Assembly: GCF_021728535.1 (NCBI RefSeq)
Contig: NZ_JAKKDU010000004.1
Coordinates: 94,853 to 158,852 of the forward strand
DNA: 64,000 bases
Direction: 5' to 3'
Origin: Wocania arenilitoris
Lineage (GTDB): Bacteria; Bacteroidota; Bacteroidia; Flavobacteriales; Flavobacteriaceae
Both the position numbers and the translations under genes were made by a program. This document shows, in pieces, positions 17,575 to 61,020 of this stretch. The notes under the pieces were generated by a model. The model was given only the letters and a program-made list of their open reading frames with translations. It was not told the DNA's origin and ran no database searches. Within the stretch, counting starts at the first letter, position 1; each line of letters starts with the position of its first letter.

Positions 17575-20774
<3,200 letters not shown>

Positions 20775-40331: not shown

Positions 40332-42944
40332 CTAATAGAATTTAAATGTAATTTTCTTGCTTTTTATACTAACGCCTTTTTTTTCTTTCCAAATATTTTT
40401 ATCTGGATCTCCAACTCTTATTGTATAATAATTTAATTTTTCAAATATTTTAGGTTTGTATACTTTAGAATTAATACGCAATGTATATTCTACTTTTTTA
40501 GTTGATTCATTTATAATTTCAATCACAGGTTTTTTTAGCCCTTTAATTTTGATTTGTGGCAAATATGCAACAGCTTTACGGCCATAATTATCTTCTTGTG
40601 TAATTGTTTGAGGCCAACCTGGATATTGGGCATCTTTTTCTTCAGGGTCTATAAAACGCTTAAAGCATTCTGTTTTTATAGTTCTATCTTTTTTATTAAA
40701 GGTCACTATACCATAGCCCACAGCTCTATTATGCAAAACCTTAGGTTCTTTATGCATGTTATGTGGGTTTGCTACTGCTTTCACTGTCATTTTATTACCA
40801 AACCCATCGATGTGGTTACCAGTATAAGCAGGGTTATCATAGCTGTGATTTGAACTGTCTACGGGTGGCCAAAAGCGTCGAGGCCAAATGTTATTTAAAG
40901 CTGGGCCAGCAAAGGCAAATCCACTATCTTCAAATTCATCTAAACCATATTGAATAAAAGAACCTAAATGTTGGTCTCCAGCTATATGAAATGCAAATCC
41001 TTTTCTAATGATTTCAACCGCCTTATCCCTTTTTTTTGCAGGCCAACCGTTAGAATCCATATCTACTGTAGGCTTGTCTCCTTGAATGTATTCTCCTATC
41101 TCTGGAACATAAAGTTTAGGTACAACAGCACCTGTTTTTTCCTCTTCGGGCAAGGTAGCAACCGTAGCAAAATTGGTTTGAGACAATACTGCTTTCATCT
41201 GTGCACCATAAGACCAATCTTGCACCCAATACTTTAAAAAATCTTCCTGTCTAGACCCTAACAATTCGGCGTCTAAATCTCTGTATTTTTTAATATCAAA
41301 ATTATCGGCCATAATCCATCCGTTATACACTTTTGCTTGTTTGGGTAAGACATGTGAAGGTGCCGACTTAAACTTTCTATCCTCTAAAATAGCAAAGCTA
41401 ATACCTGCATAGTTCCAATGGGTATAATAAACCCCAATATTGTTTTTTACAGATGTCGTATCGTATGGATCTGGCAAATGACTAGTTTGGGTAAATTGCA
41501 CCATATTTACCCATTCAGGTGTCATTTTATAACCACCGCTATCTTGTGATGATGCTCCGTATCCATCACTATTGTCTGCTAATTTCCCTTCTTCTCCCCA
41601 AATATTTCCATGGTAAACATCATGATCGTCTGGAATGATAGCACATGGTCGGTGTCTGAATAATTCGCGATAAGACCAACCAAACATCATCCATTTTCTT
41701 AGATAATCTAAACACATTTTATCGAAATCTCCAGAAAATTGTACTCCATAACCACCAGTGGCTTCATAAAATTGATCTCCGAGGAATAAACAAATATCAG
41801 GATTTAATTTTGACACATTTTCATTTACATCCGAATCGGGAAAACCATAGTCGAAGTTACAGCTAAACACAGCTGCTTTAAGTGTATCTTTGGTTTTTGG
41901 CTCTGCTAAAATAGTACCGTTATAATCATATTGATGAAGTTCGTTTACCAAAGGAATTTGCAAGCGAATTCTATAGGGCGTATTTGTAATAGCATTCCAA
42001 TTATCTACTGAAAAATTTATAGCGCGACCTGCATGTGTAATCACTTGTTCTTCTTGAGTCTTCCAATTATTATCTTTTTTAAATTGTAAAAGTACTTTGT
42101 GACCTTTAATGTCTTCAATTGGAGATAATTGAGTTGTTATTTTTAGCTTTTTACGATTTAAGGTGTATTGAGAGAAGCAAATAGGACCGTAAATGTTTTC
42201 TTCATTAGAATACAAAGATTTTGAATTTATATTCCAATTTTCAAATCCCACTAGGGGTTTGTAATTATTATTTCTTTTGGTATCGATATTTGATATTAAA
42301 GCAAAACCACCTTTTAGGGTTTTATTAGAAACCTCTATGTCGTTTAAGTTAAATATTACACTATTAAGTGTATCAATAATCGAAATGCTAAGTAATTGCT
42401 TATTAGTATCAGCATTTTTTACAGTAACATGTAAAGTATAATTTTTTGGTATTTTATTTAAATTGGTTTTATGAATTTTATTACCAAAAACCAGATTGCC
42501 TTTCAAATTTAGTCCTATATCTAAGCCTTTACCAAATACAGCAGATGATCTGTAATCATCAAATCTTCCTTTGACTCCAAGCCTAATACCATAAAAACTA
42601 TTTTCAGAATTCTTAATGTCATCGTCTAAAATATTTATAGTAACTTTTGTCTCAAATTCCGCACTGCCTTTTGGGTTTTGTACAGTTAGTAAATGTAAGT
42701 TTCTATTTTTACCTTTTACAACACAGATAGCTTGTCCGTTCTTTAATTCCCAATCTTGGAGTCTATTACCCCAATATTGAGGTCCAATCCATTTCATGTT
42801 TTGCCATAAATGCCATTTGCTTTTAAATGCCAAAGGTTTTTGATTGGTAAACCCCATAGCCGAAATATTTTTAATGCCATAGCCAGAAGCTACAGGGATT
42901 ACTGAGCCTAATAAGACTGTTTTTATATAATTTCTACGATTCAT
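40332..42944 (-). CDS. PhoD-like metallophosphatase, exported
   Basis: 870 residues. The N-terminus MNRRNYIKTVLLGSVIPVASG looks like a Tat-type signal. Residues about 40-240 resemble a beta-sandwich, then a PhoD-type N-terminal domain precedes the catalytic part. Metal-binding blocks are AAVFSCNFDYGFPDSD, ICLFLGDQFYEA, IIPDDHDVYHGNIWGE and FHIAGDQHLGSF. PhoD-family enzymes are calcium/iron phosphodiesterases and phosphatases. As the last gene of the PUL operon it may remove phosphate from the glycan or degradation products. Members beside sulfatases are seen in marine Bacteroidota, and the true substrate could be another ester. It starts 71 bases after the second sulfatase. Confidence 0.85.
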   Translation of the reverse strand: MNRRNYIKTVLLGSVIPVASGYGIKNISAMGFTNQKPLAFKSKWHLWQNMKWIGPQYWGNRLQDWELKNGQAICVVKGKNRNLHLLTVQNPKGSAEFETKVTINILDDDIKNSENSFYGIRLGVKGRFDDYRSSAVFGKGLDIGLNLKGNLVFGNKIHKTNLNKIPKNYTLHVTVKNADTNKQLLSISIIDTLNSVIFNLNDIEVSNKTLKGGFALISNIDTKRNNNYKPLVGFENWNINSKSLYSNEENIYGPICFSQYTLNRKKLKITTQLSPIEDIKGHKVLLQFKKDNNWKTQEEQVITHAGRAINFSVDNWNAITNTPYRIRLQIPLVNELHQYDYNGTILAEPKTKDTLKAAVFSCNFDYGFPDSDVNENVSKLNPDICLFLGDQFYEATGGYGVQFSGDFDKMCLDYLRKWMMFGWSYRELFRHRPCAIIPDDHDVYHGNIWGEEGKLADNSDGYGASSQDSGGYKMTPEWVNMVQFTQTSHLPDPYDTTSVKNNIGVYYTHWNYAGISFAILEDRKFKSAPSHVLPKQAKVYNGWIMADNFDIKKYRDLDAELLGSRQEDFLKYWVQDWSYGAQMKAVLSQTNFATVATLPEEEKTGAVVPKLYVPEIGEYIQGDKPTVDMDSNGWPAKKRDKAVEIIRKGFAFHIAGDQHLGSFIQYGLDEFEDSGFAFAGPALNNIWPRRFWPPVDSSNHSYDNPAYTGNHIDGFGNKMTVKAVANPHNMHKEPKVLHNRAVGYGIVTFNKKDRTIKTECFKRFIDPEEKDAQYPGWPQTITQEDNYGRKAVAYLPQIKIKGLKKPVIEIINESTKKVEYTLRINSKVYKPKIFEKLNYYTIRVGDPDKNIWKEKKGVSIKSKKITFKFY

Positions 42945-43015
42945 TTATTGAAAAAAATTTTCAGAAAGTTTTTTATAATCAGGGTTTTGTTTAATCATAT
43001 ATTGATTATTCGACT

Positions 43016-44431
43016 TTATTTAACAAAGTCTTTATTTAATTCGGTTGGAACTGGTGCATTGGTTTTTGCTCTCCAATCTATAAGTTCTTTATGTAACATC
43101 TTTACAATCTTAGGGTTTTCATTTGAAATATTATTTTGTTCTCTTAAATCGGTATCTAAATTGTAAAGTTCTAAATCACCATCTTCAAAATATTCATGCA
43201 GTTTCCATTTTCCTTTTCGTATAACACTTCCTGGTCTAGTTCTAAAGAAAGGATCTCTAGCTTCTTCTTTTTTTGGTTTAACACTTTGAAGATAAATAGG
43301 AAAGTGCCAAAATAATGAGCGTTCTTCTATCTTTTTGTTTTCTACTAAAAGTGGCAAAATTGAAGTGCCATCAAAATTATAGTTTGTTTTATCATTTACA
43401 ACATCCATAATGGTTGGAAATATATCCAAGCCTGTAATAGGTGTATCGTCTTTTCTAAAAGTTTTTATTTTATTTGGCCATTTTATAATACAAGGAACTC
43501 GTATCCCCCCTTCGTAATAAGACCCTTTACCACCTCTTAATGGAAACTGTGAAGAAACACTTGCCAACCCTCCGTTATCAGACATAAAAATAACTAACGT
43601 ATTATCTGAAATATTGAGTTTATCAAGTGTCTTTAAAATTTTTCCAATATTAGTATCCATAGATTCAACCATAGCACCATATTTAGCGTTAAATCGTTCA
43701 TCACCATTTAATTTTAAGGTATATTTTTGAACGAGACTATCTTTTCCTTGTAAAGGTGTATGAACTGTGAAATATGGAAGGTATAGAAAAAATGGCTGGG
43801 CTTTATTTTTATTAATATAACTAATGGCTTCATTTGTTAATCTGTCGGTTAAATACTCGCCCTCTTTTCCATCTTCAAGAGCAGGATTTTTATATGGACT
43901 AAAATAAGACTTTGGATGTCCTGCATGCGACCCTGCAATGTTTACATCAAAACCTTGTGTTTTAGGATTTTCCCCCAGATGCCACTTTCCTATTGATGCA
44001 TTAGTATAACCATTACTTTTTAATGCTTCGGCGAGTGTAATAAAATTATCGTTTAAGGTTATTGTATTTGGGGTAGGTACTAATTTTCGATTTTTAGATT
44101 TACCGCGTTCAGAAGAACCAACCGTATAAATACCATGTCTAGGTGTATTTTTACCAGACATGATGCAGGCTCTACTTGGGGCACAGTTTGCCGCTGGCGC
44201 ATAAGCATTACTAAATATCACAGCATCACTAGAAAATTTATCTAAATGAGGGGTTTCATAAACTGGATTCCCCATAAAACCGGTATCACTCCAACCAAGG
44301 TCGTCTACCAAAATGAAAAGAATATTTGGTTTGGTTACCGCTCCCCCTTTTTTATCGCTTTTAGTAAGGCATCCAAAAAGGGTTATACAGAAAGCCAACA
44401 CCAATGCTATTTTAATTTTTGATTTTGTCAT
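43016..44431 (-). CDS. Sulfatase (S1 family), lipoprotein
   Basis: 471 residues. A lipoprotein signal ends at Cys21 (TLFGC), so it is held in an envelope membrane. The metal site begins ILVDDLGWSD. Cys83 in CAPSR (83-87) is the residue converted to formylglycine, the catalytic aldehyde; FMSDNGG and GKWHLG are further blocks. It should remove sulfate esters from a saccharide; the position of the sulfate cannot be told. No maturase for the formylglycine is in the window. It differs clearly from the other sulfatase at 51741 (CAPAR), so the two probably act on different sulfates. Confidence 0.92.
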   Translation of the reverse strand: MTKSKIKIALVLAFCITLFGCLTKSDKKGGAVTKPNILFILVDDLGWSDTGFMGNPVYETPHLDKFSSDAVIFSNAYAPAANCAPSRACIMSGKNTPRHGIYTVGSSERGKSKNRKLVPTPNTITLNDNFITLAEALKSNGYTNASIGKWHLGENPKTQGFDVNIAGSHAGHPKSYFSPYKNPALEDGKEGEYLTDRLTNEAISYINKNKAQPFFLYLPYFTVHTPLQGKDSLVQKYTLKLNGDERFNAKYGAMVESMDTNIGKILKTLDKLNISDNTLVIFMSDNGGLASVSSQFPLRGGKGSYYEGGIRVPCIIKWPNKIKTFRKDDTPITGLDIFPTIMDVVNDKTNYNFDGTSILPLLVENKKIEERSLFWHFPIYLQSVKPKKEEARDPFFRTRPGSVIRKGKWKLHEYFEDGDLELYNLDTDLREQNNISNENPKIVKMLHKELIDWRAKTNAPVPTELNKDFVK

Positions 44432-44483
44432 TTTTACTTTAATATTTTAAGGATCATTCCCAAACAAAGACAACTGTTTTAAT

Positions 44484-45194
44484 TTAATCTACTGTAAACT
44501 CAAAAACCTCTGATGTTGAGCTATTTCCATGTGCATCTATAGTAATAACATACCACTTATAATTTGTTCCAGAAGATACTGTTACACCAGCTAGACTCGT
44601 ATTTGTTAATCCACTAGATAATTCAATTAATGTCTCTCCAGAAATTGCAAAATACACGTCGTAAGTTGCTATATCATCATCAACATCACTAGCACTCCAC
44701 TCTAAAGTTGTACTTGTTGTAGCTGCTATATTCGTGCTATTAGCAGGTGCTACTACAGTCGCTGGAAAAGGTGCGTAATTCACAACGCCTGCGCCTGCGT
44801 TATAAAATTTCCATGTGGCACTTATAGCAGTTTCTGAAACCTCAGTGGACTTTGAAATTATGTACCATGAGTATGGGGTAGCACGTAATAACTCAATACT
44901 TTTTTCATTTGTAGCCGCTGTATGAGTTGTACTAACACCGCTTTCTAAGTTTTTTAAAACTAATTCATAGGAATCTGTATTGGCACTGGCATTCCATTTA
45001 AATAAAACCGTACTATTTGTATCTGTTATATTAGTGCCTTCTGTACATTCTGAGTTCTGATTAGGAAAACTAAGCGCTGCTGCCACTGGCTTTTTAGGTG
45101 GTTCAACTACAGGTGGATTTGGTTCATCATTACCTCCACTACTGCAACCCAATATTAATAATAAAACAGATATATTTAATATTAACTTTTTCAT
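44484..45194 (-). CDS. Surface lipoprotein with two fibronectin-III-like domains
   Basis: 236 residues. The lipoprotein signal ends LLILGC at about residue 17, followed by SSGGNDEPNPP and a proline-rich linker typical of exposed Bacteroidota lipoproteins. Two beta-sandwich repeats follow (about 40-130 with TVLFKWNASANTDSYELVL, and 140-235 with TTLEWSASDVDDDIATYDVY). No catalytic residues are seen, so binding or spacing is likely. The start overlaps the stop of the 1584-residue T9SS gene by 4 bases (ATGA), suggesting coupled translation and a joint role at the surface. Confidence 0.8.
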   Translation of the reverse strand: MKKLILNISVLLLILGCSSGGNDEPNPPVVEPPKKPVAAALSFPNQNSECTEGTNITDTNSTVLFKWNASANTDSYELVLKNLESGVSTTHTAATNEKSIELLRATPYSWYIISKSTEVSETAISATWKFYNAGAGVVNYAPFPATVVAPANSTNIAATTSTTLEWSASDVDDDIATYDVYFAISGETLIELSSGLTNTSLAGVTVSSGTNYKWYVITIDAHGNSSTSEVFEFTVD

Positions 45195-48100
45195 TGTTTA
45201 ATCATTTTATGGTTAATGAAATTTTCGCCAACTTCAACAGAAACTATATACGACCCTTTAGGCAAATCACTTGTATCTAATTTGATTTTTTGATTAGCAC
45301 TTGGATATTTTTGAATACGAACTAAACGTCCTAAGGAAGTATAGATAGAAACTTTAGCTTCTTTATTATTTTCCATCATAGATCCTAACAGGATATTAAG
45401 TTCGTTAGATGTTGGATTAGGGTAAAACAAATCTTTTCCGCTTAAAATAATGGTTTCTTGATATAGCCCCTGGCAAGTTTTATTGGTAGATACTTTTAAA
45501 TCATTTGCTATATTAGGTTGTAAGTTGAGTATTACCTTACTTTTTGTTGTTACAATTTCTGTTTTGTTTAAACTAATAGTATAAGAGCTTGCACCAGATA
45601 ATTCTAATGATACGGTATTTTTAGAATTATTAACCTTTGAAAACACGGATAAGTTTTCTGGTTCGTTTATAACTACCGTAAAGCACTGTTCATAATAAGG
45701 GGCTTCATCGATGGTAATACAAATACTATATGTACCAGCTAATAGGTTTTCTAAATTTAAAGGAGAAGCTAAGCTAAAACTACTTGTTTGGTTAAAACCT
45801 TCCCCTGTAATAATTGCATTATATGGGTAATCTGCTTTTGGTATTATATTAATTTTTCCATTATTACTATTTCTACATGTTTCACTTGTGCTAGAAACAG
45901 TATAATTATCGATAGATAAGTTAACATCTAAAGGTTTTTTTACAGTAATATAATCTACTATTTCTTTACTATCAGATCCTTGTATATTGGTAGCTTCCAG
46001 TATTACTTTATAAGAGCCTTCAGTGTTGTAAGTTATTGTTGGATTTTGATCTGTACTTGTGTCTGGTGTTCCACCTTCAAAAGTCCAAGCCCAAGATGTA
46101 GGGTTATTCGTTGAAGTGTCAGTATAACTAACTTGTTCTCCTTCCCAAATGATGGTTTTATCAGCAGAGAAATTTGCAACCGGAGGAGGAGGTGTGTTTA
46201 CCGTAATATAATCTGTAATTGTTTTAGTGTCAGACCCCTCACTATTAGTTACTGTTAGTGATACTGTATAAGTTCCGGCTGTAGAATAAGATATAGTAGG
46301 ATTTTCTTCATTAGAACTTTCAGTATCCGCACCAATAAATATCCATGACCAAGTGGTTGGGCTACCAGAAGAATTATCAGTAAAACTAACCTCATCTCCT
46401 TGTAATATTGTAGTAACATTTGCACTAAAATCTGCTATAGGAGGTACAGGAGGTGCATCATTCATAATATCCTGAATTTCTTGTTCAGTTAATGCTTCAG
46501 AATAAATTCGAACGTCGTCTAAATCGCCTTGCCAATAATAATTTGCATTATAATTTGCATTACCTACTTGTAAATTATTTATGGTATTATCTGTATTTAT
46601 AACTGTAGCTTCCGAATTAAATGAATCGCCACTATCTGGTTGATTTGCATAAAACACACCATCAATATAAAGTTTCACATCTGATGCTTTATCTCCATCT
46701 GCAGGATCATAGGTTACTGCTATATGTCGCCATGTATTACCATCTAATCTTGCTACACTTGAGTCATCATTTTGAACATTACAACTTCCTCCTTCTACTC
46801 TAATATTTCCATTCTCCACCATAACGTTAAACATTTGTCCAGAAGAATTTGTGCCCCAAGAAACTATGGTTTTCCTGCTACCCGCAGCAGTTGTTTTTAT
46901 CCATGCTGTTACTGTACGTTCCCCATCAGCTCCAATACTTTTATAACCATTCGTTAAATAATTATTTGAAGCCCCGGGACTATGGTAAGCACTGTTAGGA
47001 TTGGCATTATGGTCATCGACATAAGTTGGAGTAAAACCTCCAATTACAGATAAGTTTCTGCCATATGATGAGTCATCATTCAAATTTTCATCAAAGTTGT
47101 AATGCGCTTGTAACGTACCCGACCCCATATTTTCTGTTACTGTTATATAATCAACAACCTCTTTCGTATCAGATCCTGTATTATTAGTTACAGTTAACGA
47201 AACCTTGTAAGTTCCTATAGTATTGTATGTTATGCTTGGATTTTGGTCTGTACTATTAGCTGGAGTGCCACCTTCAAAAGTCCAGTTCCATGAAGCCGGC
47301 TCATTCAAAGATGAGTCTGTAAAATTAATCAAATTACCTTCAGATACAGTTTGAGAATCTACTGTAAAATCTGCAACAGGAGCAGGTAATGGAATAACTG
47401 TTATATAATTAGCTACAGATTTTGTTTCTATACCGGAATCTGTTGTATAAGACAGTGTTACAGCAAATGTCCCTTCGGTATTATATGTTACTATAGGGTT
47501 TTCTTCTAAACTTGTCGCAGGGGTACCACCTTCAAAAGTCCATATAAAAGATCCAACGGGAACGTTTGAAGATTCGTTTGTAAATTGAACCTGCCCGTCT
47601 TTAAAAACCTCTGCTTTATCTGAGTTAAAATTGACAGTAGGTGCTGGCAAAGAAATATCATTTAGAGCCGTTCTCCAGAATCCTCTACCATCTGTAGAAA
47701 CTGTTAAAAAACTATCTTCTCTAGTTGCTCCATAATAAATATCCATTCCTGAAACACGTATGGCTGGTAATCCGTTTGAGTAATCTATCCAATTTGATAA
47801 GGTTGCATCTTTATAATAAACACCTAAATCCGTTCCTATATAAATCCCTTCATCGCTGGAGCTATCGTATACCATTTCTAGTAATGGAATACTTGGCAAT
47901 CCATTAGAGATATCTGTCCAAGTTTCTCCTTTATCTGTTGATTTATAAACTTTACTACCTCTTAAAATATAGACTAAATTTTCATCTGTTGGATGTGTTG
48001 CTATATCGTTAATTGTTCCGGAACCTTGTAAGTTAGATGTTAAATTGATGAAAGAAGGAGAGGCGGTTCTAACATCGTCCGATCTGTAAAAAGATCCGCT

Positions 48101-50000: not shown

Positions 50001-51710
50001 TTAATTTAATGTCTTAAATTTCTGCGTATCCAATGACCACGTTATGCCTTCATCATTCTTTATTTTTATCCTGTAAAAATAATTTGTATCGTTTTCAAGG
50101 TCATTTAATGTTATAGTATTAGCCTCCGCACTAATCGGGATAGACATGCTATTTTGCCATTTGCTTTCTTTAGTAAGCCCTTCTTCAGTTCCCCAAAAAA
50201 GTTCTGCTGAAGCATTTGTGCCTAAATTTGAGACATTAAAACTAAGCTTTGCTGATGTGCTTAAAATTTCTATTGGAGAGTTATCTACAAAGCTTGCAGG
50301 CATTTTATAAAGTTCATCTAAATAAGCTCCTTTAAGATAGTCAGGGACAGGATCAGGGTTGTTAAGTGTGAGTGTCTTCTTTTCAATTCCAGGCTCTCCC
50401 CAGCCTCCCATTTGCATTGAAAATTTATTGTTGACTGTTTTCCAATCTCTATAGCTTAGATTATTCTGTCCAGTTGTTCCAATCATTTTGTTTATAGGAT
50501 ACCAATTCCCAGATGTGTCCATCTGCCAGCCTCTATATTGTGTTTCGCTTGTTACATTTCCATTTCTCACCTTATGCGCACCTCCTGGGACTTCTACAAA
50601 TGCCCCTGTAGTTAAATATTCGATATTTCCATTCTTATTAAATTTTTTACCACAACCGTACAATTTCCAATGTCCATCTACAGGGTCTAAGTAGTAACTC
50701 CAATATGTGTCATATGTTTCTCCGGGAACTTTACGCACGGCAATGGTTTGAACATTTGTATCAATACCTATATATGGGTGATTGCCTCTTGGTTTTACAC
50801 CTGTACCTTCATGGCCATAAGACCCAAATTCGAGCCCGGGTCCGACAGCAATGAGATGACTTTCCTGGTAGAATGGTGGAACAGGATCGTTTTGACCATA
50901 AGACCAAAGCGAAAAATTATAACCTCCAAATGTTTGGGTGTCTTTATCCCATGTTGAACCTGTGTACCCAAACGGTGTTGTTATGGGTTGATAAAAATCC
51001 TGTGATTTGCTTATAATAGTAAGTTCATGAACACTAATTTCGATAGGGTTTGTACTTTCAGTAGCCCACTTACAATGAACTGCTTTAGCTCGATAGCGAC
51101 GCATTACACTTTCAGCATCTTTAGCAGCTGGACCTGTTACATGAAGGTTGTTTAAGCGCCCTACACTCGAACCTGGATTAGTAAGCGATTTTAATTGCAG
51201 TTTTACTATATGAAAACCTGTTGTAACATTTTCAAAAATTACTTCGTCTTGAACTACATAGTTATTCTCTGATCCTGTTGAAGTTAAAGGTAATTCTTTA
51301 CTCACATCGTCTAAATAAATTAGTATTTTGGAACCTTCTTGATTTGCAGGAATTCCCATTTCTGGCTTAATAATTAAATTTCCGGCTGTTTTTATGTTTA
51401 TACCAAAAACGATGGTATCGGTTAATACTTCCCAATTAGTTATATAATCGTAGTATTCATTTTTATTATACTCATTTCCAGTTGTTTTATCTCTTAGATT
51501 AGCTAATAAGGTACCTGTTGGGGAAAAGAAACTTTCATTAGGTGTTAAAACAAGTGTTTCATAGTCTTCATTTTCTGTGGGTTCATTTTCTTCTTCCTCA
51601 GTTTCAATAGGTGGAGTTACCGGGGCGTCACTTTTTGAACAAGAAGCGGCAATTGAATTAGTAAATAGTAATAATAAACTTAGATTTATAAAATATTTTT
51701 TTAATATCAT
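50001..51710 (-). CDS. DUF3472-like exported lipoprotein
   Basis: 569 residues. The lipoprotein signal ends at IAASC, followed by an acidic Pro/Glu linker. Residues about 55-195 form a beta-sandwich resembling DUF5077 domains. The next part (about 225-470) has the look of DUF3472, with [30 protein letters not shown] and [17 protein letters not shown]. The tail (about 480-569) is a fibronectin-III-like domain ([12 protein letters not shown]). DUF3472 proteins occur in PULs, but no activity is established to my knowledge. Placed between a sulfatase and the T9SS giant, it is a good candidate for an undescribed carbohydrate-active or binding protein. Domain naming is from memory. Confidence 0.7.
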
Positions 51711-51740: not shown

Positions 51741-53321
51741 TTATTTTGTATTATATATTTCTTCTAAAGCATCTATTTTAAACCTTTCAACTTCTGGTGT
51801 GCTATGTTCTTTTTTTATTATTTCAAATAATTTTTCTACTATTTCTGGATGCTGAGAGGCAATATTTCTGGTTTCTGCTAAATCTTCTTCTAAATTGTAT
51901 AACTCTATCTCTTTATTTCCTTTTTTGATGTTTTTCCAGAGTATTTTCCATTTGCCCATCCTAATAGCTACTTGTCCATTATATTCTGGGTATTCCCAAT
52001 ATAAATAGTCATGTATTTTTTGTTCTTCCGGTTTACTTAAAAGCGTTGGTAAGAAGCTATTACCATCTGTACTAGTGGGAGCTTTTTGATTGATGATATC
52101 ACAAAAAGTTGCCATAACATCGTAATGTGCAGAAATTAAATTGGTTTTAAAACCGGCTTTAATTTTGTCTGGCCATGAAGCAATCATTGGTACGCGAATA
52201 CCTCCTTCGTTTAAAAAGCCTTTTCCATAACCATATTCACTGTTAAATGGTTTGGCACTATCAAACCATGAAGAATCTGAACCGCCATTGTAAGTTGGTC
52301 CATTGTCCGAGGTAAACATAATAATGGTGTTTTCATAAATGCCTTCTTTTTTTAACTGAGCAACTAATTTCCCTACGTTCTCATCTAAATAAGAAACCAT
52401 TGCTGCGTAAGTAGCTCTTGGGTTTTTTGTTGGGAAATATCCTTTGTCTCCTAAATAAGGTTCTTCTTCTCCAAATTTATTTATATAATAATCTACCCAT
52501 CTTTTAGGTGCTTGTAATGCAGCATGTGGTATTGGGTCGGCCCAATACATAAAGAAGGGTTTGTCTTTATTAGTATCAACAAATTGGGTGATTTTTTCAA
52601 ACATCACTTCTGATGCGTATTCTTTTAAATTGTAATTAGAATAACTGGCTTCATCATTAGGGTTAGCGTCTTTTGCTAGCTTGGTGCCAGGAGCAATTGT
52701 ATCATTAGCAAGTGGGTATCGCTTATCATTTTCATATAGATGAACAGGATAATAGGTATGAGCTTGTCTCTGACAATTAAACCCAAAGAAGTAATCAAAG
52801 CCAAAATTATTAGGAATGGAGGTTGTATGTGGAGCACCTAATCCCCATTTTCCAACCATAGCCGTAGCATACCCACTTTCTTTAAGCTTGTTTGCTACTG
52901 TTATTGTTTTTAATGGAATGGGTCGTTGTCCTTCTAATGTAGAATCTTTAATGGCAGCCTTGTAGTTCCAAACATTACCTCTTTCTGCCCATTCGTCATT
53001 GCCTCTAACATAGGAGTGCCCAGAATGTTTCCCTGTTAAAAAATTAAATCGTGCGGGTGCACAGACGGGTGTACCGGTATAATGTTGTGTAAACAAAACA
53101 CCATTTTTAGCTAGTGCATCAATATTGGGTGTTTCTATTTTTTCCTGACCGTAAGCCCCAATTTCGGCATAACCTAAATCATCAGCTAAAATGTAGATGA
53201 TGTTTGGTTTATTTGGCTTAGTTTGGGTTTTATTTTTTTCTGCACGTTCTTTACATGAAAATGAAAGTGCTAGCACGAAACCAATTATTAGGATTTTTAT
53301 TAAGTAGTTTTTTGTATTCAT
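51741..53321 (-). CDS. Sulfatase (S1 family), lipoprotein
   Basis: 526 residues. The lipoprotein signal ends at Cys23 (SFSC). The metal site is YILADDLGYAE. Cys87 in CAPAR (87-91) is the formylglycine precursor; FTSDNGPT and GKWGLG are further family blocks. It resembles arylsulfatase-A-like carbohydrate sulfatases. It follows the SusC/SusD group after a 187-base gap with a large hairpin, so it may be expressed at a lower level. Together with the second sulfatase it shows that the PUL substrate is sulfated. Confidence 0.92.
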   Translation of the reverse strand: MNTKNYLIKILIIGFVLALSFSCKERAEKNKTQTKPNKPNIIYILADDLGYAEIGAYGQEKIETPNIDALAKNGVLFTQHYTGTPVCAPARFNFLTGKHSGHSYVRGNDEWAERGNVWNYKAAIKDSTLEGQRPIPLKTITVANKLKESGYATAMVGKWGLGAPHTTSIPNNFGFDYFFGFNCQRQAHTYYPVHLYENDKRYPLANDTIAPGTKLAKDANPNDEASYSNYNLKEYASEVMFEKITQFVDTNKDKPFFMYWADPIPHAALQAPKRWVDYYINKFGEEEPYLGDKGYFPTKNPRATYAAMVSYLDENVGKLVAQLKKEGIYENTIIMFTSDNGPTYNGGSDSSWFDSAKPFNSEYGYGKGFLNEGGIRVPMIASWPDKIKAGFKTNLISAHYDVMATFCDIINQKAPTSTDGNSFLPTLLSKPEEQKIHDYLYWEYPEYNGQVAIRMGKWKILWKNIKKGNKEIELYNLEEDLAETRNIASQHPEIVEKLFEIIKKEHSTPEVERFKIDALEEIYNTK

Positions 53322-53508: not shown

Positions 53509-54501
53509 TTACAATCCTGCCAATGCAGCAATTTCTACTGCAGTTAAAGCTCTGTTATAGACTCTTAAATCATCGATAGCGCCTTTAAACCGCCTGAATG
53601 TTAAACTCCCATCAGATGCACCTTCTGAACCGATAGTAATTTGTCTGTCTCCAGCAACTGCTGTGTTAATTCGAGTTTCGGGTCTAGTAAAGTCTAAAAC
53701 TGCATCGATATACACTTTAATATCAGCTCCATCATAAGTATAGGCAATATGATGCCATTCCCCGTCATTTACCTTACCCGTAGAGTTTTGACCACCACCC
53801 TGATACTCAAACCTTACCGTTCCATTACCGTTAACAACAAACGTATTTCGACTAAAAGTTCCACTGTTACCCCAAGTAGCTACACCTTGTCTTGCCGTAT
53901 TAGTTGTCTTAATCCAAGCGGAAACTGTTCTGGGATTGTTACCTGTTATACCGTTATACCCCTCTATGGTAATACCACTTCCACTAAAAGTGGCTGCAAA
54001 ATCATTGATTGCACCTTCTTCATAACCTGAAACTGCTCCAATGGCGTTTGTTTCTGAAACTTCCTCATATAAACTTTGTTCAAAGTTTAAACGCACTTCA
54101 ACTGCTGGATCTAAAGGCTCGCCTTCAACAGTTATAAAGCCTTCTTTAACGACTTCGTTTGCTCCATATTGGTTTCTTATTTTAAGGGATACCGGATAAG
54201 TTCCTCTTACTGTATACTTTACTGTTACATTTGCTTGATTACTATCACCAGGGCTACCCCCAGTAAAGGTCCAAGAATATAAATCGCCTTCGTTTATTTC
54301 GGCAGTTGCAAAATTTATGGTCTCAAATTGAAAAATTGATGTAGCCGATGCTGTGAAATCTGGCACTGGCAAAAGGCTTGGATCAATATTTGAATCTTTA
54401 CGATAACCATTTTCATTAGGTGAACATGCTATAAAAACACCTATAACTGTCAGAGCCAAAATGCTCAACTTAGCTTTAGTATATATATTTATTTTATTCA
54501 T
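53509..54501 (-). CDS. Surface lipoprotein with PKD and LamG domains (SusE position)
   Basis: 330 residues. The lipoprotein signal ends GVFIAC at about residue 26, followed by SPNENGYRKDSN. A PKD domain (about 47-128, FSWTFTGGSP-like, here YSWTFTGGSP) precedes a LamG/concanavalin-like domain (about 130-330) with VSAWIKTTNTARQG and DDLRVYNRALTAVEIA. It follows SusD directly, the usual place of SusE/SusF-type glycan-binding lipoproteins, and probably captures the substrate on the cell surface. The PKD-LamG pair closely resembles the same modules in the 1584-residue T9SS protein of this operon. Confidence 0.85.
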   Translation of the reverse strand: MNKINIYTKAKLSILALTVIGVFIACSPNENGYRKDSNIDPSLLPVPDFTASATSIFQFETINFATAEINEGDLYSWTFTGGSPGDSNQANVTVKYTVRGTYPVSLKIRNQYGANEVVKEGFITVEGEPLDPAVEVRLNFEQSLYEEVSETNAIGAVSGYEEGAINDFAATFSGSGITIEGYNGITGNNPRTVSAWIKTTNTARQGVATWGNSGTFSRNTFVVNGNGTVRFEYQGGGQNSTGKVNDGEWHHIAYTYDGADIKVYIDAVLDFTRPETRINTAVAGDRQITIGSEGASDGSLTFRRFKGAIDDLRVYNRALTAVEIAALAGL

Positions 54502-54563: not shown

Positions 54564-56345
54564 TTACCAATCTGGATTTTGATCCAAATTTGGATTAATT
54601 ACACGCTCATTAGAAGGTATAGGGTATAAGTAATAATACTCTGGGAATGCCGGAGGGATATCGTCAATTGCTTGAATATACCCTTCTGAAGCATTATTTT
54701 GAATTTTTACTGTTGGGTAATCGGATTTACTTACCCAGCGACCTAATTTTATTTCGGTTGCATAATCCATTTTTTTCCATCGTCTTAAATCATCTCGTCT
54801 ATAACCATCACCCATAAGTTCAATAGCGCGTTCACGACGTATTTCCCATAAAACTGGATCTACACTTTGGTCGCGCATCGGGTCCCAATCTGCAGTTATA
54901 GCACCCACATCCATAGGATCCACACCACCTCTTGCTCTTAATTTTGTAATAGTAGCATCGGCAATGGCTTGATTAAATTGTCCCATTTCAAAGGCCGCTT
55001 CTGCATAATTTAACATCACCTCACCCATTCTAAATATTGGACAGTCACTTACATCTGCAGAAGACACTTTATAATTATGCTCATTCCATACTTTCCAAAA
55101 ACGATACCCGTTATTTGTTTGAGTAGGTACTAATTTTGTAAAGTTTGGCACTTCACCCGTAACACGTCCTGACCAATTACGATCTGGTAAATTCTTATAC
55201 GGAAAGCCGCTAGTAATAGATTCTAATATTGAAAAATATTCTCTAGTTGGATCATTTAGATCTGTAGATAGAAAGTCAAATTCCTGCCCACCATCACCTG
55301 TAACTTTATATGGAGGAGGTGTCATAATCAACAAACGATTATCTCGATTTTTAAATTCATCATTAAAATTCTTATCTCCAAGATATTGCGTATTTCCTGC
55401 ATTATAAATTGGCATTCCATTTTTAGTTAAAAATTTGTCGATTCCTTTTCTAGTAATATCGTACTTATTATTGGTTGATCTCGTATCTGTTGACACCCAA
55501 TGTGTTAATTCATCAATAATATAATGCTTATACAATAAAATACCAGGTTGTCCAGCTAAATTTTCGCTATTAAATACATGGTCGTAATTACTCATTATAG
55601 ATGGGTGCTTATTTACTAATTCTTGAGATGCGGTAATACAGGCATTAAGAAATTTTTCTGAACTAGCTAGACCATGATATTTACGCCACGTCCCTTCAAA
55701 CAATCCAAAACGCGAAAGCAAAGCTCTGGCAACATCTGCCGTAATAGTGTTATCTCCATCACCATTTTCTTTAATATTATCGACTGCAAACAAAAGGTCT
55801 CTAAGTATATTGTCTGCTACCAAATCACGACTATCTCTTGGTGCGTATAAAAGATCGGTATCTAAATCTGTTAATTCATTCTCTACCCAAGTTACACCAC
55901 CAAAAGTAGATAACAATGTAAAGTATTCGTGTGCTCTAAAAAACAAGCCTACACCACGCCAATGATTTTTTTCTTCTTCTGTGATATTAGATTCATCTAA
56001 ATGATCTAGCATTATATTTACTTTACGAATGTTTGAATAGCTAGAACTGTATCTGCCATCACTATTAGGAATATTGTATGATGCATATAAGTAACTTCGT
56101 CTACCGTTAGTTTGCATTAAATCGCCATCTAAATCTCTAGTAGCGGCCCAACTTGTGCTCCTCCCATAAGACTCTAAAAAATCATAAAAACTCCATGAAT
56201 ATGTTTTTATATTGTTGTATGTGCTAAAAATAGTCGCAGCAGACAGTTCGTCTTTAGGAGTTTTATCTAAAAAATCTTCTTCGTTACAAGCTGTAAAAAG
56301 GATACCGCTTAAAAGAATTATTAATATGTATTTTAAGTTTTTCAT
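54564..56345 (-). CDS. SusD/RagB-family glycan-binding lipoprotein
   Basis: 593 residues. The lipoprotein signal ends LFTACNEEDFLDKTPKDEL, the typical SusD N-terminus with an acidic export signal after the Cys. TPR-like helical segments and the family ending ELMGDGYRRDDLRRWKKM and YYLYPIPSNERVINPNLDQN are clear. SusD closes over the SusC channel as a lid and delivers oligosaccharide. It lies 12 bases after susC. Its partner proteins here suggest a sulfated glycan, but no ligand residues can be assigned. Confidence 0.95.
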   Translation of the reverse strand: MKNLKYILIILLSGILFTACNEEDFLDKTPKDELSAATIFSTYNNIKTYSWSFYDFLESYGRSTSWAATRDLDGDLMQTNGRRSYLYASYNIPNSDGRYSSSYSNIRKVNIMLDHLDESNITEEEKNHWRGVGLFFRAHEYFTLLSTFGGVTWVENELTDLDTDLLYAPRDSRDLVADNILRDLLFAVDNIKENGDGDNTITADVARALLSRFGLFEGTWRKYHGLASSEKFLNACITASQELVNKHPSIMSNYDHVFNSENLAGQPGILLYKHYIIDELTHWVSTDTRSTNNKYDITRKGIDKFLTKNGMPIYNAGNTQYLGDKNFNDEFKNRDNRLLIMTPPPYKVTGDGGQEFDFLSTDLNDPTREYFSILESITSGFPYKNLPDRNWSGRVTGEVPNFTKLVPTQTNNGYRFWKVWNEHNYKVSSADVSDCPIFRMGEVMLNYAEAAFEMGQFNQAIADATITKLRARGGVDPMDVGAITADWDPMRDQSVDPVLWEIRRERAIELMGDGYRRDDLRRWKKMDYATEIKLGRWVSKSDYPTVKIQNNASEGYIQAIDDIPPAFPEYYYLYPIPSNERVINPNLDQNPDW

Positions 56346-56357
56346 AATTATTTTTAT

Positions 56358-59300
56358 TTAAAATGAAAGATTAATACCCATTGAATATCTGGTCATAATA
56401 GGATATACCCCATTAGAACTTTGATCTGGGTCTAGCCCCTTGGGTAATTTATCGAAGGTATGTATGTTGTTTCCAGAAACAAACACTCTTAACTTATCAA
56501 TGTTTAATTTATCAAGAAGTTTACCATCTAAACTATATCCAAATGTAATATTTTGGATACGTAAATAGCTTTCGTCGCTTAAATATTTGGTTTGGGTTCT
56601 TCTATTTCTTCCATAATTACCGCCTGTATTGCCATTACTCGCATCGCCATACATTCTAGGGTAATAAGCATCTTGATTGTCTGGAGTCCAATAATCGAGT
56701 TGATGTTTATAAATATGATCAAAACCTCCTCGAAAAGGCCAAATGAGGTCTGAATTTCTATTGCCATCTTCTTTAGCAACACCACTTAACACAAAAGAGA
56801 CATCAAAGCCCTTATATTGAACAGCACCATTAATACCAAATTGGTAATGTTTTTGGTTGTTGCCAATCACTTTTCTATCACCTAGTCCTGTAGTAATTAC
56901 GCCGTCGGCATTAACTACTGGGTTTCCTTGATCGTCTAATTCTGTTATTAATGATGAATTTCCAGCCGCTATATAACCGTCGCCATCTAAATCTTTAAAT
57001 TTCACATCGCCCGGATATGGTGTGTTACCTATAAAAGTAGGCACTCCAGGTTTTAGCTCCCTATTAGGTCCCTCTAGATCAGCATTAAGTGTTCCTGGCA
57101 CAAAATCATCTGCGGTGTAATAGCCATCGGTTACATAACCCCAAATTTCTCCAATTTCTCGACCAACGTAATTACGACCTATTAAGCCACCAGGGTTATC
57201 GAATTTTGTAATTTTAGATGTGTTATCGAATAGATTCACATTAATATTATATGTTAAGTCTCCAATACGGTCATTCCAACCTACTTCTACTTCCCATCCT
57301 TTAGTTTCTAAATCTGCTACATTTTGAAATGGAGCAGCAGTACCAAGTATATCTGGTAGTGGTTGTCCTGCTGCTAACATCCCTATAGTTTCTCTTTTAT
57401 ATATTTCAAAACTAGTGCTTAGGCGATTTTTAAACATTCTTAAATCTAGCCCAATATTACTGGATATTACTCTTTCCCAAGTTAATCCAGCACTAATTAA
57501 CTGTGCAGGATTAAAAGTTAAATAGCGCAAATCGGTTTCTAAATTCGTCCACGAAGCAAAGAAGCTTTCATATCCAGGATTAAATGGATAATAATCTCTA
57601 CTTCCATTAAGCTTTCTTGCAATTTGATTTCCAATTTCTCCCCAAGAGGCTCTTGGTTTTAGCATAGATATAAAATCTACATTCTGCATAAACGGTTCTT
57701 TAGCTACATTCCAAGCAACAGAAAATGAAGGTAAAAGCACATAACGATCGCCTTCATCAAAAATAGAAGAACCGTCATATCGTAAATTAGCTTCTGCAAA
57801 ATAGCGTTCTTTATAGTTGTAATTTAAACGTCCAAAATAACCAACTACTGCCCAATCATAAAACGATTCACTAATGTCGAAATTTTCACCTTCTGCCAGC
57901 TCGAAAGTAGCCGTTGTTGGATCGATTAAGCCATTTCTAGAAGTTGATAAAGATTCGAAACTCTCACTTTCTCTGTTTAAACCGGCTAACACATTAATAT
58001 TGTGATCTCCTAAACTAACATTGTATTTTGCATATAAGTTTAAACCATTATAAACTCTTTGATTTTTTGAACGCGCCAAACTTGTATTAGTAAATACATT
58101 TTCGGCTAATGTTTCAGGATTAAACCTAAAGGTGCTAATAAAGCGTTGTCCATTATTTATACTTAATGTACTTACATTATTTTTTTCATAAGTATATTCT
58201 CCTGTAAGACTAACATTTTTAATTGGTTTCCACTCGAGTTTTTCAAAAAGCCTCAGGTTATCATCATATGTTTTTGAAGGGACTGTATACCGAACTTTAT
58301 TAGCTGTAGATCCAAAGGGTAATATTACGCCCTCTGGTTCGTACTCAAACCAACCTGTTGGATCGTACATACGATTTTGAATAGCTGCAGAATATGAAGC
58401 TCTAGGTCGGCTTTGTACACTAGATCTGTATAAAATATTAGTTGTTGATACAAGGTTAGAAGCAATATCAGCAGTTACTAACCCATTAATATTATACTTT
58501 TTAAAATTATCTTGATTTGTTACCATAATACCATCTTCGTAGCTATAACCAGTACCTAAGCGATAAGCTACTTTTTCTCCTCCTCCAGCAATTGTGAAAT
58601 TATGAATAGTTTGATATCCAAAACTATTTAAAAACTCATCAATATGATTAGAATCTGCTAAAGGATAATGTTGATTAGTTGCTGTATCAAAATGAATGGG
58701 ATAGGTTGTTCCATTAACAGGATCCTTAATTAAATTTAATTGACCTGGATTAGAATCATATAAATCTAAATATCCTAGCCAATCTTGCACATTTTGACCA
58801 GCAAAATAACTTCTTTCACCCCAATCGTTTAAAGCTTCAATAAATTCTCTTGTTGTCGCTTTTTCGGGTAAATCAGAAGGATTAGAAATACTTGTAGTCG
58901 TATTGTACGAAAACTTGACTTTTTCATTACGTTTAGCCTGCTTTGTAGTAATAATAACCACCCCAAAAGCAGCTCTAGCTCCATAAATAGAAGAAGATGC
59001 CGCATCTTTAAGTACAGAAATAGACTCAATATCACTTGGGTTTATATCGTTAATACTTCCAGGTACATTATTAATTAAAATTAATGGTGTACCTCCATTA
59101 ATAGAAGTAAATCCACGAATATTAATACCAACGCCGTTTGATCCTGGCTGGCCCGTACTATTGGTTACTTGCAATCCAGCAGCTACACCTTGCAGTGCTT
59201 CTGCAGCATTAACAATTGGCCGATCTGCAATAATTTCATCCATTTTAACAAAGGATGTCGCTCCAGAAACGTTGTCCTTTTTCTGTGTACCAAAACCTAC

Positions 59301-59621
59301 TACTACTACCTCATCAAGCTGTGAAACATCTTCCTGTAAAGTAATATTTATAGTGGTTCTGCCAGCAACTGCAACTTCTTGAACAAGATATCCTATGTAG
59401 GACACCACAAGTGTTGCATTTTCATTAACAGTTAATGAATATTTCCCGTCAAAGTCTGCCGAAGCTCCTGTAGTTGTTCCTTTTACGGCTATAGTAGCAC
59501 CTGCTAAAGGAAATCCTGCTTCGTCCGTAACCGTACCTTCAACGGTCTTTTGCTGAGCCTGCATCGAACAGGTAAGCACCAACAAAATCCCTAAAAGTTT
59601 TAAAGTTAATAGTTTTCTCAT
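56358..59621 (-). CDS. SusC/RagA-family TonB-dependent outer-membrane transporter
   Basis: 1087 residues. The signal peptide ends SMQAQ at about 23. A carboxypeptidase-D-like regulatory domain (about 24-105, VEGTVTDEAGFPLAGATIAV) is followed by a TonB-box-like DEVVVVGFGTQKK, the plug domain with INIRGFTSINGGTPLILIN and SSSIYGARAAFGVVIITTK, and a 22-strand barrel to the C-terminal Phe. It imports oligosaccharides with energy from TonB/ExbBD. It begins 40 bases after the GH109-like gene and is followed by SusD. Confidence 0.96.
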   Translation of the reverse strand: MRKLLTLKLLGILLVLTCSMQAQQKTVEGTVTDEAGFPLAGATIAVKGTTTGASADFDGKYSLTVNENATLVVSYIGYLVQEVAVAGRTTINITLQEDVSQLDEVVVVGFGTQKKDNVSGATSFVKMDEIIADRPIVNAAEALQGVAAGLQVTNSTGQPGSNGVGINIRGFTSINGGTPLILINNVPGSINDINPSDIESISVLKDAASSSIYGARAAFGVVIITTKQAKRNEKVKFSYNTTTSISNPSDLPEKATTREFIEALNDWGERSYFAGQNVQDWLGYLDLYDSNPGQLNLIKDPVNGTTYPIHFDTATNQHYPLADSNHIDEFLNSFGYQTIHNFTIAGGGEKVAYRLGTGYSYEDGIMVTNQDNFKKYNINGLVTADIASNLVSTTNILYRSSVQSRPRASYSAAIQNRMYDPTGWFEYEPEGVILPFGSTANKVRYTVPSKTYDDNLRLFEKLEWKPIKNVSLTGEYTYEKNNVSTLSINNGQRFISTFRFNPETLAENVFTNTSLARSKNQRVYNGLNLYAKYNVSLGDHNINVLAGLNRESESFESLSTSRNGLIDPTTATFELAEGENFDISESFYDWAVVGYFGRLNYNYKERYFAEANLRYDGSSIFDEGDRYVLLPSFSVAWNVAKEPFMQNVDFISMLKPRASWGEIGNQIARKLNGSRDYYPFNPGYESFFASWTNLETDLRYLTFNPAQLISAGLTWERVISSNIGLDLRMFKNRLSTSFEIYKRETIGMLAAGQPLPDILGTAAPFQNVADLETKGWEVEVGWNDRIGDLTYNINVNLFDNTSKITKFDNPGGLIGRNYVGREIGEIWGYVTDGYYTADDFVPGTLNADLEGPNRELKPGVPTFIGNTPYPGDVKFKDLDGDGYIAAGNSSLITELDDQGNPVVNADGVITTGLGDRKVIGNNQKHYQFGINGAVQYKGFDVSFVLSGVAKEDGNRNSDLIWPFRGGFDHIYKHQLDYWTPDNQDAYYPRMYGDASNGNTGGNYGRNRRTQTKYLSDESYLRIQNITFGYSLDGKLLDKLNIDKLRVFVSGNNIHTFDKLPKGLDPDQSSNGVYPIMTRYSMGINLSF

Positions 59622-59661
59622 AATTTAAAGTTTGATTTAGTTTTCATATTCTAATTTTTAT

Positions 59662-61020
59662 TTAATAGCTGTCTTTAATCCAGTTATAAGGTTTGTTCTT
59701 TACCCACATACCTCTTGTGAAATCAGGAAAATCCTGTGGTTCGCCATTGTTTTCTATGGATAGTTCAGATAATGGGGTAATAGCACTCCACGCAGCAGCG
59801 TCGTAGGCATCCATTGGAGGTGCTATATTTTGTTTTGCAGATTCTACAAAAGCATGTAACACAAAAAAGTCCATACCGCCATGACCTGCACCTGTGGCAT
59901 GTTCGCCATATTTTTTCCAAAGTGGATGATCGTATTTTTCCAACCAAGCTTTAGAATCATCCCACTTGTGAGGTTTAGAAATGCCTTCTACATGTATTCT
60001 GTCTCCATCCTTTTCCCATAGCCCCTTTGTGCCCTGAACCCTAAAACCTAATGAATAAGGTCTTGGTAAGTGTACATCATGGGTAACTATAATGGTTTCT
60101 CCATTGGCTGTTTCTATGGTTGATGTAATAACATCGCCCATTTTAAAGTTTACTTTTGCATTTGGATGATTTTCTCCGCCATGTTCAACAATATAATTAT
60201 GCATCCCCCTACTTTTTGTGGCATGAGAGGTTAGTGATACAAACCTATTGCCTCTGTTGATGTCGCACATAGCAGCTATTGGCCCAGCGCCGTGGGTTGG
60301 GTAAACATCTGCGTTTCTTAATACTGAATGTTGTGTTCTCCAAGCCGACTCCGATATACCTTTATCACCAAACTCTACACCTTTACCATAAGCTGTCTTT
60401 CCATCATTAAGCATAACGAAACGTAAATCGTGTTGGTAACCACATCTAAAATGAACCAATTCGCCAAAAACATTTTGTTTTACCATATTTAAAACAGCTA
60501 AAACATCCCGACGGTAATTTACATTTTCCAACAACATTAAATGTGTTCCTGTTTGTTCATGTGTATTTACTAAATCCCAGCATTCTTCCAATGTATTGGC
60601 TGCCGATACTTCTAAACCTGTGTACTTGCCAGCTTTCATAGTATCTACTGCCATTCTGGTATGCCAAAGCCATGGTGTTGATATAATAACAGCATCTACT
60701 TCTTTTAATTCTAATAGATTTCTGTAATCATAATCACTTTTTCCAAAAACTTGTGGTTCTTTCTTTCCTGCCTTGCTAATCTTATCTAAAGCTATTTTTA
60801 TACGATTAGGGTCTATGTCACAAATAGCTGTTATCTCTACATCTTTTCTTATTAAAGCATTGTTTAAATGATTAGTTCCTCTTAAACCAACACCAATAAA
60901 TGCTAGTTTTAACTTGTTTGTATTGTCATTAATAGTTTTAGCATAGGTTAAACTTGGCAATATGGTAAGTCCTGCACTTGCCAATGCAGCTTGCTTAACA
61001 AAATTTCGACGTCTATTCAT
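59662..61020 (-). CDS. Gfo/Idh/MocA-family protein, GH109-like, Tat-exported
   Basis: 452 residues from the chosen start at 61020, where NRRRNFVKQAALASAGLTI forms a twin-arginine signal; an earlier in-frame ATG at 61071 would put 17 odd residues before it. The Rossmann part has AFIGVGLRGTNHL for NAD binding. TGAGHGGMDFFVL near the C-terminus is the motif I associate with GH109, a family that cleaves N-acetylgalactosaminides by an NAD-dependent redox mechanism. It could instead be a dehydrogenase or act on another sugar. It is the first gene of the PUL operon, 40 bases before susC, and is the only glycosidase-like enzyme in it. Confidence 0.82.
   Translation of the reverse strand: MNRRRNFVKQAALASAGLTILPSLTYAKTINDNTNKLKLAFIGVGLRGTNHLNNALIRKDVEITAICDIDPNRIKIALDKISKAGKKEPQVFGKSDYDYRNLLELKEVDAVIISTPWLWHTRMAVDTMKAGKYTGLEVSAANTLEECWDLVNTHEQTGTHLMLLENVNYRRDVLAVLNMVKQNVFGELVHFRCGYQHDLRFVMLNDGKTAYGKGVEFGDKGISESAWRTQHSVLRNADVYPTHGAGPIAAMCDINRGNRFVSLTSHATKSRGMHNYIVEHGGENHPNAKVNFKMGDVITSTIETANGETIIVTHDVHLPRPYSLGFRVQGTKGLWEKDGDRIHVEGISKPHKWDDSKAWLEKYDHPLWKKYGEHATGAGHGGMDFFVLHAFVESAKQNIAPPMDAYDAAAWSAITPLSELSIENNGEPQDFPDFTRGMWVKNKPYNWIKDSY

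Follow-up and report, generated by a model that had tools for sequence, protein, structure and literature searches.

The genes analysed here form a ten-gene SusCD operon on the minus strand of a 64,000-nucleotide stretch of the Wocania arenilitoris genome (the window), and their counterparts have been described in several other bacteria. Bacteroides thetaiotaomicron possesses the mucin locus BT4240-50, whose enzyme BT4243-GH109 was described as freeing N-acetylgalactosamine (GalNAc) from the Tn antigen, the Forssman disaccharide and blood group A (PMC11992087). The S1_20 sulfatase BT1622 favours 3-O-sulfated GalNAc (3S-GalNAc) over 3-O-sulfated galactose (3S-Gal), with the O3-sulfated Tn antigen proposed as its target, and a 2023 review states that its biological substrate has not been identified (PMC10154612). 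For the S1_16 enzymes characterized in B. thetaiotaomicron, 4-O-sulfated galactose (4S-Gal) and 4-O-sulfated GalNAc (4S-GalNAc) are given as substrates (PMC10154612), and the characterized relatives of all three enzyme types are described as exo-acting (PMC11992087, PMC10154612). For PhoD of Bacillus subtilis, an endo-acting phosphodiesterase activity on teichoic acid is described (PMC7086022).

A putative locus for sulfated GalNAc glycans

The operon is best explained as a SusCD polysaccharide utilization locus for sulfated GalNAc glycans also bearing phosphorus substituents, most likely mucin-type O-glycans or similar marine-animal GalNAc glycoconjugates, a reading to which we assign a probability of about 0.55. 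It is suggested because the closest solved relatives of the encoded enzymes are Gal/GalNAc sulfatases and an alpha-N-acetylgalactosaminidase (alpha-GalNAcase), and it agrees with the sulfated GalNAc glycans pointed to in an earlier note on this DNA. The predicted enzymes and enzyme candidates are:

59662-61071, minus strand: GH109 alpha-N-acetylgalactosaminidase (PF21252, 290 bits; 2ixa, 521 bits)
51741-53321, minus strand: sulfatase closest to S1_20 (3S-GalNAc-preferring type), lipoprotein (CAPAR at residue 87; lipobox; 7ana, 605 bits)
50001-51710, minus strand: DUF3472 lipoprotein (CBM35-like module at residues ~50-204, DUF3472 core at 204-448 with E301 and E373, FN3-like tail)
45191-49945, minus strand: Asp-box/Vps10-like propeller protein of 1584 amino acids (aa) with PKD, LamG and a type IX secretion system (T9SS) tail (Pfam and NCBIfam)
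43016-44431, minus strand: sulfatase closest to S1_16 (4S-Gal/GalNAc type), lipoprotein (CAPSR at residue 83; lipobox; 9fo1, 348.6 bits)
40332-42944, minus strand: PhoD-like metallophosphoesterase, 870 aa (twin-arginine-like start, lectin-like domain at ~52-246, Ig-like region, PhoD domain at 358-672)

The ten same-strand genes counted in the earlier note were all found, at 40332-61071, with intergenic gaps of -4 to 187 bp. At position 61020, where the operon had been thought to end, the GH109 open reading frame (ORF) has its second in-frame Met (MNRRRNF), and the protein has a twin-arginine-like start if translation starts there. The genes are transcribed in the order GH109, SusC, SusD, PKD-LamG lipoprotein, S1_20-type sulfatase, DUF3472 lipoprotein, Asp-box T9SS protein, FN3 lipoprotein, S1_16-type sulfatase and PhoD-like protein. 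The two sulfatases, the DUF3472 and GH109 proteins, SusC/SusD and the 1584-aa Asp-box protein, all named in the note, have profile scores far above chance; its PhoD-like phosphatase scores just above the cut-off (27.8 vs 27 bits) and has invariant His/Asp motifs.

The GH109 protein consists of an NAD-binding Rossmann domain (PF01408, 42.7 bits) and a GH109 C-terminal domain (PF21252, 290.3 bits), and matches the solved alpha-N-acetylgalactosaminidase 2ixa over residues 37-468. The two sulfatases score 201 and 203 bits with the Pfam sulfatase profile. The S1_20-type protein matches 7ana with 605 bits vs 335 bits for 7an1. Since 7an1 is identical in sequence to 7oqd, a structure depicted with 3-O-sulfo-galactose (PMC13383068), 7ana is taken to be the second S1_20 enzyme, BT1622. 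The S1_16 assignment was made from the closest solved relative and the sulfatase motif. In an alignment inspected by eye, the position taken to be the O2-contacting Arg of the 3S-Gal enzyme is Gly in the window S1_20 protein and Cys in 7ana, and the Glu taken to contact O2 in that enzyme is kept in both. A 3S-GalNAc sulfatase followed by an alpha-GalNAcase would form a coherent enzyme pair.

Conservation of the locus in other genomes

Seven other genomes harbor the locus, namely G001, G003, G689, G754 (copy L011), G755 (copy L012), G513 and G736, with G689 apparently being the genome of stretch L009, as the coordinates agree. The analysis shows the gene content, the family assignments and the domain make-up, and it shows that the locus is conserved in eight genomes, that of the window included. 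The genes for GH109, SusC, SusD, the PKD-LamG protein, both sulfatases and PhoD are present in 7/7 of the other genomes, although the PKD-LamG match in G513 is weak (34%) and some copies are cut by the ends of the fetched stretches; in G755 the PhoD gene lies beyond the regulator. The identities amount to 74-88% for GH109 and 61-86% for the S1_20-type sulfatase. The search for the same gene set in other genomes, which the earlier note had suggested, thus returned the core set seven times, and within this lineage the view expressed there, that it is unusual for one SusCD unit to combine a phosphatase with sulfatases, is not borne out, the combination being the rule for this locus.

The Flagellimonas pacifica copy contains, between the sulfatase and DUF3472 genes, a gene coding for a lipoprotein (L012:8318-9985) with the sequence HELAHGLNVPH, a later SLMSFG and an F5/8C domain. 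Its Pfam match to PF12044 is weak (E 5e-4), and HELAHGLNVPH is what we take to be a metzincin-like HExxHxxxxxH motif. Such a metzincin-like lipoprotein would be consistent with a glycoprotein substrate.

Candidates for the first glycosidic cut

The statement in the earlier note that the operon has no recognisable backbone enzyme proved too strong, as GH109 is a CAZy glycosidase and the DUF3472 protein has a solved relative titled as a putative sugar hydrolase. It keeps some force insofar as GH109 is predicted to be exo-acting and no published DUF3472 activity was found in the open-licence literature, so that no known backbone hydrolase in the strict sense was identified. As for the two possible backbone cutters proposed in the note, the DUF3472 protein turned out to be the better one on account of its conserved Glu pair, CBM35-like module and lipoprotein signal, and the Asp-box protein the weaker one.

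The DUF3472 protein scores 100.9 bits with the family profile (PF11958; cut-off 24.8), and E301 and E373 are present in 26/26 relatives; the collection of 27 proteins also includes the window protein itself (L035). Searching with the single sequence gave no solved relative, while a profile built from 16 family members matched 4qhw from B. caccae, titled 'putative two-domain sugar hydrolase', with 439 bits, and 8pmu, 8pn3 and 8pn5 with 102-107 bits. The residue aligned with E373 is Glu in 8pmu and Ala in 8pn3, and this suggests that in 8pn3 the depositors replaced a residue they suspected to be catalytic. In 8pmu, 99 residues are matched by PF03272, a mucin/carbohydrate-binding module of Pfam (77 bits). 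The AlphaFold2 model of the window protein has a mean predicted local distance difference test score (pLDDT) of 48.5 and an unusable core; its informative parts are the FN3-like tail and the N-terminal module, and the latter (residues 51-204) is similar to CBM35 (Z 12.3, 2.1 A over 114 residues). Eph receptors, which occupied the top Foldseek rows, were set aside with query template-modelling scores (TM-scores) <0.2.

Proteins of the window type are rare, occurring in 3/198 genomes of the relatives set, a count that includes the genome of the window. Close DUF3472 proteins were found in the named relatives Gaetbulibacter sp. 4G1 and Flagellimonas pacifica, in two uncultured Flaviramulus and in a Flavobacteriaceae metagenome-assembled genome. 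Some relatives carry PKD-LamG domains at the C-terminus, which the window copy does not, and L011 has a tandem pair of DUF3472 genes (L011:9070-13711), the first with a PKD-LamG C-terminus and the second short. A search made to deepen the alignment confirmed no DUF3472 protein in viral contigs; DUF5077 (PF16871) had no match in the own genome, though the search control was silent too. In the open-licence literature, no papers naming 8PMU, 8PN3 or 8PN5 were found and 4QHW is named in cross-linking papers, while DUF3472 or its accessions are named, among others, for centipede venom (PMC7864903) and for a Chryseobacterium nematode pathogen (PMC6394051), in passages that give no activity. Judged by these features, the DUF3472 protein is a putative hydrolase and the best candidate for the first glycosidic cut.

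The Asp-box protein has homologues in L009, L068 and L067/L055. Among the five other copies that are readable at this point, it is present in G689, G513 and G736 and not in the locus of L011 or G755. Pfam assigns no GH family over its propeller, and the NCBIfam match to 'F510_1955 family glycosylhydrolase' is below the cut-off (112.6 vs 175 bits). A GH74 xyloglucanase reading is not supported: the similarity to 6p2k is weak (43.7 bits), and at the position taken as catalytic in the first blade motif there is no Asp in the four readable propeller proteins. As a backbone cutter it would thus be a weaker candidate than the DUF3472 protein.

The locus might also dispense with an endo-enzyme and scavenge short sulfated or phosphorylated GalNAc saccharides pre-cut by others, as the earlier note offered for its second option. 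This would agree with the exo-acting relatives of GH109 and both sulfatases and with the failure to find DUF3472 in 2/7 other copies, but we consider it rather unlikely, given the DUF3472 lipoprotein with its Glu pair and CBM35-like module (two copies in L011), the large T9SS propeller-PKD-LamG proteins, which suggest large substrates, and the peptidase-like gene in the Flagellimonas copy.

The lectin-fused PhoD-like protein and its neighbourhoods

In 18/18 full-length PhoD proteins compared, D390, DDHD at 439-442, H653, D657 and H659 are invariant, presumably as metal ligands, and all 18 have a twin-arginine-like start. In the model of the window protein, residues 52-246 adopt a lectin fold of the concanavalin-A type (Z up to 14.4, 3.0 A over 161 residues), with many legume lectins at Z ~12. 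GH2 enzymes and purple acid phosphatase, the top Foldseek rows for this protein, were set aside (query TM-scores <0.2).

PhoD-like proteins occur in 70/397 Flavobacteriaceae genomes at E<=1e-30. From the best matches, with those of the window and its two congeners omitted, 14 stretches of 20 kb were taken and compared with control stretches lying 100-120 kb away on the same contigs. A sulfatase is present in 9/14 PhoD stretches vs 2/14 controls (Fisher p=0.009), a comparison somewhat favouring the case side because seven of the 11 sulfatases in the search profile came from case stretches, and including two copies of the locus itself (L053 from G736 and L055 from G513), without which the count is 7/12; three PhoD stretches and one control have unreadable parts. 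The two control matches scored 251 and 394 bits. The neighbours of PhoD include S1_20 relatives (L058, L062, L065), S1_16 relatives (L053, L055, L060), GH95 (L059, L064, L065), GH123 and an EEP gene (L065), and a GLAA-B gene (L060), which we take to be GH110-like.

Five of the 14 stretches (L054, L057, L061, L063, L064) have no sulfatase. Two of these, L054 and L057, contain DUF3472 and L064 contains GH95, while in L061 a GH109-domain gene is accompanied by SIS and class II aldolase genes, and L063 looks similar by eye and by blastp. In L054:9015-13561 and L057:7377-11376, SusCD loci of two genomes, a lectin-fused PhoD stands beside a canonical DUF3472-DUF5077 gene. In G487, too, PhoD shares a contig with a DUF3472 gene, at a distance of ~15 kb. 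DUF3472 was detected in 2/14 PhoD stretches and 0/14 controls, too few for a test; because L054, L057 and G487 pair the two genes and no control has DUF3472, PhoD and DUF3472 appear to be linked also independently of sulfatases.

The lectin-like domain, the presence of PhoD in all eight copies and an Exo_endo_phos gene following PhoD in L011 and L053 and near it in L065 would also suit a backbone or branch joined by phosphodiester bonds, with PhoD itself being the depolymerase, as the B. subtilis enzyme is for teichoic acid. We regard this as improbable, as the twin-arginine-like start of the 18 proteins would place PhoD in the periplasm behind SusCD and not at the surface, though the L009 copy differs.

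Phosphorus substituents

Invertebrate glycans are described as bearing 2-aminoethylphosphonate (in jellyfish O-glycans), phosphoethanolamine, phosphorylcholine and sulfate (PMC6994554). The host genome probably can degrade 2-aminoethylphosphonate, judging by profile matches to PhnW (415 bits, cut-off 361), PhnA (460, cut-off 408) and PhnY (628, just under the cut-off of 636). These genes form a PhnA-PhnY-PhnW cluster on contig C16 (L075), where a PgtP/GlpT-like transporter gene is also present. PhnA was found in 9/397 Flavobacteriaceae genomes, all nine PhoD-positive (Fisher p=1e-7), on the assumption that the PhnA, PhoD and GH29 scans covered the same 397 genomes, which are related and hence not independent. 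GH29 in at least four copies is about as strongly associated with PhnA (8/9, p=7e-7), and after stratification by GH29 copy class the PhnA-PhoD association gives p=4e-4 for any PhoD and p=0.009 for the long form. As support for the aminoethylphosphonate idea this association is suggestive, not decisive.

A more far-reaching and clearly tentative proposal is that the lectin-fused PhoD would constitute a novel class of carbohydrate phosph(on)odiesterase working alongside the sulfatases and DUF3472 and removing 2-aminoethylphosphonate, phosphoethanolamine or similar groups from marine-invertebrate GalNAc glycans, such loci then being phosphorus-acquisition systems as well. The degradation of jellyfish detritus is ascribed mainly to Gammaproteobacteria in the cited work, and this lends no support to a jellyfish specialization of Flavobacteria (PMC10360251).

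Proposed mechanism and its significance

From these assignments we infer a substrate, an order of steps, cellular locations and an action of PhoD and DUF3472 on the glycan. Surface lipoproteins would bind and trim the glycan, with the DUF3472 protein, through its CBM35-like module and putative hydrolase core, and perhaps the Asp-box protein making the first cut at the surface. The two sulfatase lipoproteins (S1_20 and S1_16) would take 3-O- and 4-O-sulfate off GalNAc/Gal, and the fragments would be imported via SusCD. In the periplasm, the lectin-fused PhoD would take off a phospho- or phosphono-ester, and GH109 would act last, releasing the bared alpha-GalNAc.

If correct, this pairing of a 3S-GalNAc-type sulfatase with an alpha-GalNAcase in a conserved operon offers a concrete candidate substrate, O3-sulfated GalNAc glycans including Tn. 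It also brings forward two enzyme types, DUF3472, a putative enzyme with solved structures, and the lectin-fused PhoD, and the removal of phosphonates or phosphodiesters from animal glycans would tie carbohydrate degradation to marine phosphorus cycling.

Evidence against the GalNAc reading

Several observations weigh against the preferred reading. The BT1622-type S1_20 model enzyme prefers beta- over alpha-linked 3S-GalNAc (kcat/KM ~1.1e2 vs 7.5 per s per M; PMC13383068), and therefore the alpha-GalNAc/Tn part of the reading is weakened. No peptidase family is among the profile matches of the ten operon proteins at E<=0.1, and DUF3472, present in 5/7 other copies, went undetected in what could be read of G513 and G736. 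PhnA and PhnW are both present in 3/8 and absent in 5/8 locus-bearing genomes, so the aminoethylphosphonate pathway is not a fixed partner of the locus. For PhoD, the Pfam match (PF09423) is marginal and the AlphaFold2 model has a mean pLDDT of 49.1, with a usable lectin-like domain and a low-confidence PhoD core. Moreover, the L009 copy, which is cut by the locus end and stands outside the 18 proteins, has by eye a lipoprotein-like start instead of a twin-arginine one, which makes a fixed periplasmic location less likely.

The best structure match of the S1_16-type sulfatase, 9fo1, is titled 'k-carrageenan sulfatase S1_16', and 4S-Gal of algae is a possible target of this enzyme. Taken further, the target could be a glycan free of GalNAc, such as a sulfated galactan of algae, with GH109 and the S1_20 sulfatase having drifted in specificity and PhoD merely supplying phosphate. 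The G736 copy, with its GH43-domain gene and third sulfatase, would fit, as would the 44 sulfatase-family matches (one below cut-off) and at least five GH29 matches in the 3.49-Mb host genome, as for a degrader of algal glycans; PhoD of marine Flavobacteriaceae is, moreover, commonly interpreted as an alkaline phosphatase that provides phosphate (PMC7477175). Yet no known galactan-degrading family appeared in the Pfam scan of the ten operon proteins (the genes of other copies were covered in part), the identities of GH109 and S1_20 proteins across the seven other genomes are high, and this PhoD, which has a lectin-like domain and is found close to sulfatases and DUF3472, is unlike an ordinary phosphate scavenger. 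An algal target therefore seems doubtful.

Transport, binding and regulatory genes and the surroundings

The remaining operon genes and the regulator are:

56358-59621, minus strand: SusC TonB-dependent transporter (TIGR04056, 833 bits)
54564-56345, minus strand: SusD homologue (Pfam SusD_RagB, 142.5 bits)
53509-54501, minus strand: PKD-LamG lipoprotein, likely a surface glycan-binding protein (Pfam Laminin_G_3, 93.9 bits; lipobox)
44484-45194, minus strand: FN3-containing lipoprotein of 236 aa, a possible surface glycan-binding protein (Pfam fn3, 27.9 bits; lipobox)
61366-63999, plus strand: hybrid two-component system regulator, divergent from the operon and extending past the window end (full length 1369 aa, L008:3219-7328)

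Past the PhoD gene, the translations resemble, by eye, cell-division and housekeeping genes. Downstream of the regulator, L008:8148-12890 contains a PSCyt1/PSCyt2/PSD1 (planctomycete-type) gene paired with a DUF1501 gene. Elsewhere in the window, a GH2 beta-galactosidase is split over two minus-strand ORFs at 17575-20573, with the N-terminal domains at 19617-20573 and the TIM barrel and C-terminal domains at 17575-19566, reflecting either a broken gene or a sequencing error.

Comparison with known systems

The window operon and BT4240-50, as described, have in common SusCD, a surface binding protein, a GH109 alpha-GalNAcase and what would be a glycoprotein-directed logic (PMC11992087). The window operon differs in having two sulfatases and the DUF3472, PhoD and propeller proteins, and in lacking an M60 peptidase, GH2 and a GalNAc kinase; since no peptidase family is among its profile matches, it is not assigned to the BT4240-50-like mucin loci. 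With the S1_20 enzyme BT1622 and the S1_16 enzymes BT3057 and BT3796, the window sulfatases share high similarity and the sulfatase motif, and 3S-GalNAc and 4S-Gal/GalNAc specificity is expected (PMC10154612, PMC13383068), whereas in the window both sulfatase types occur with GH109 in one marine operon. The DUF3472 protein belongs to the same Pfam family as 4qhw and 8pmu/8pn3/8pn5, has the two conserved Glu residues and resembles 4qhw in its N-terminal module (Z 11.5), but compared with canonical and other DUF3472 forms it represents a divergent subgroup (18-21% identity) with an FN3-like tail. The Pfam PhoD domain is common to the window protein and PhoD of B. subtilis (PMC7086022). In contrast to the latter, the window protein carries an extra lectin-like domain, is encoded alongside sulfatases within a SusCD operon and reaches only a marginal Pfam score. 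A twin-arginine-like start is presumably shared by both.

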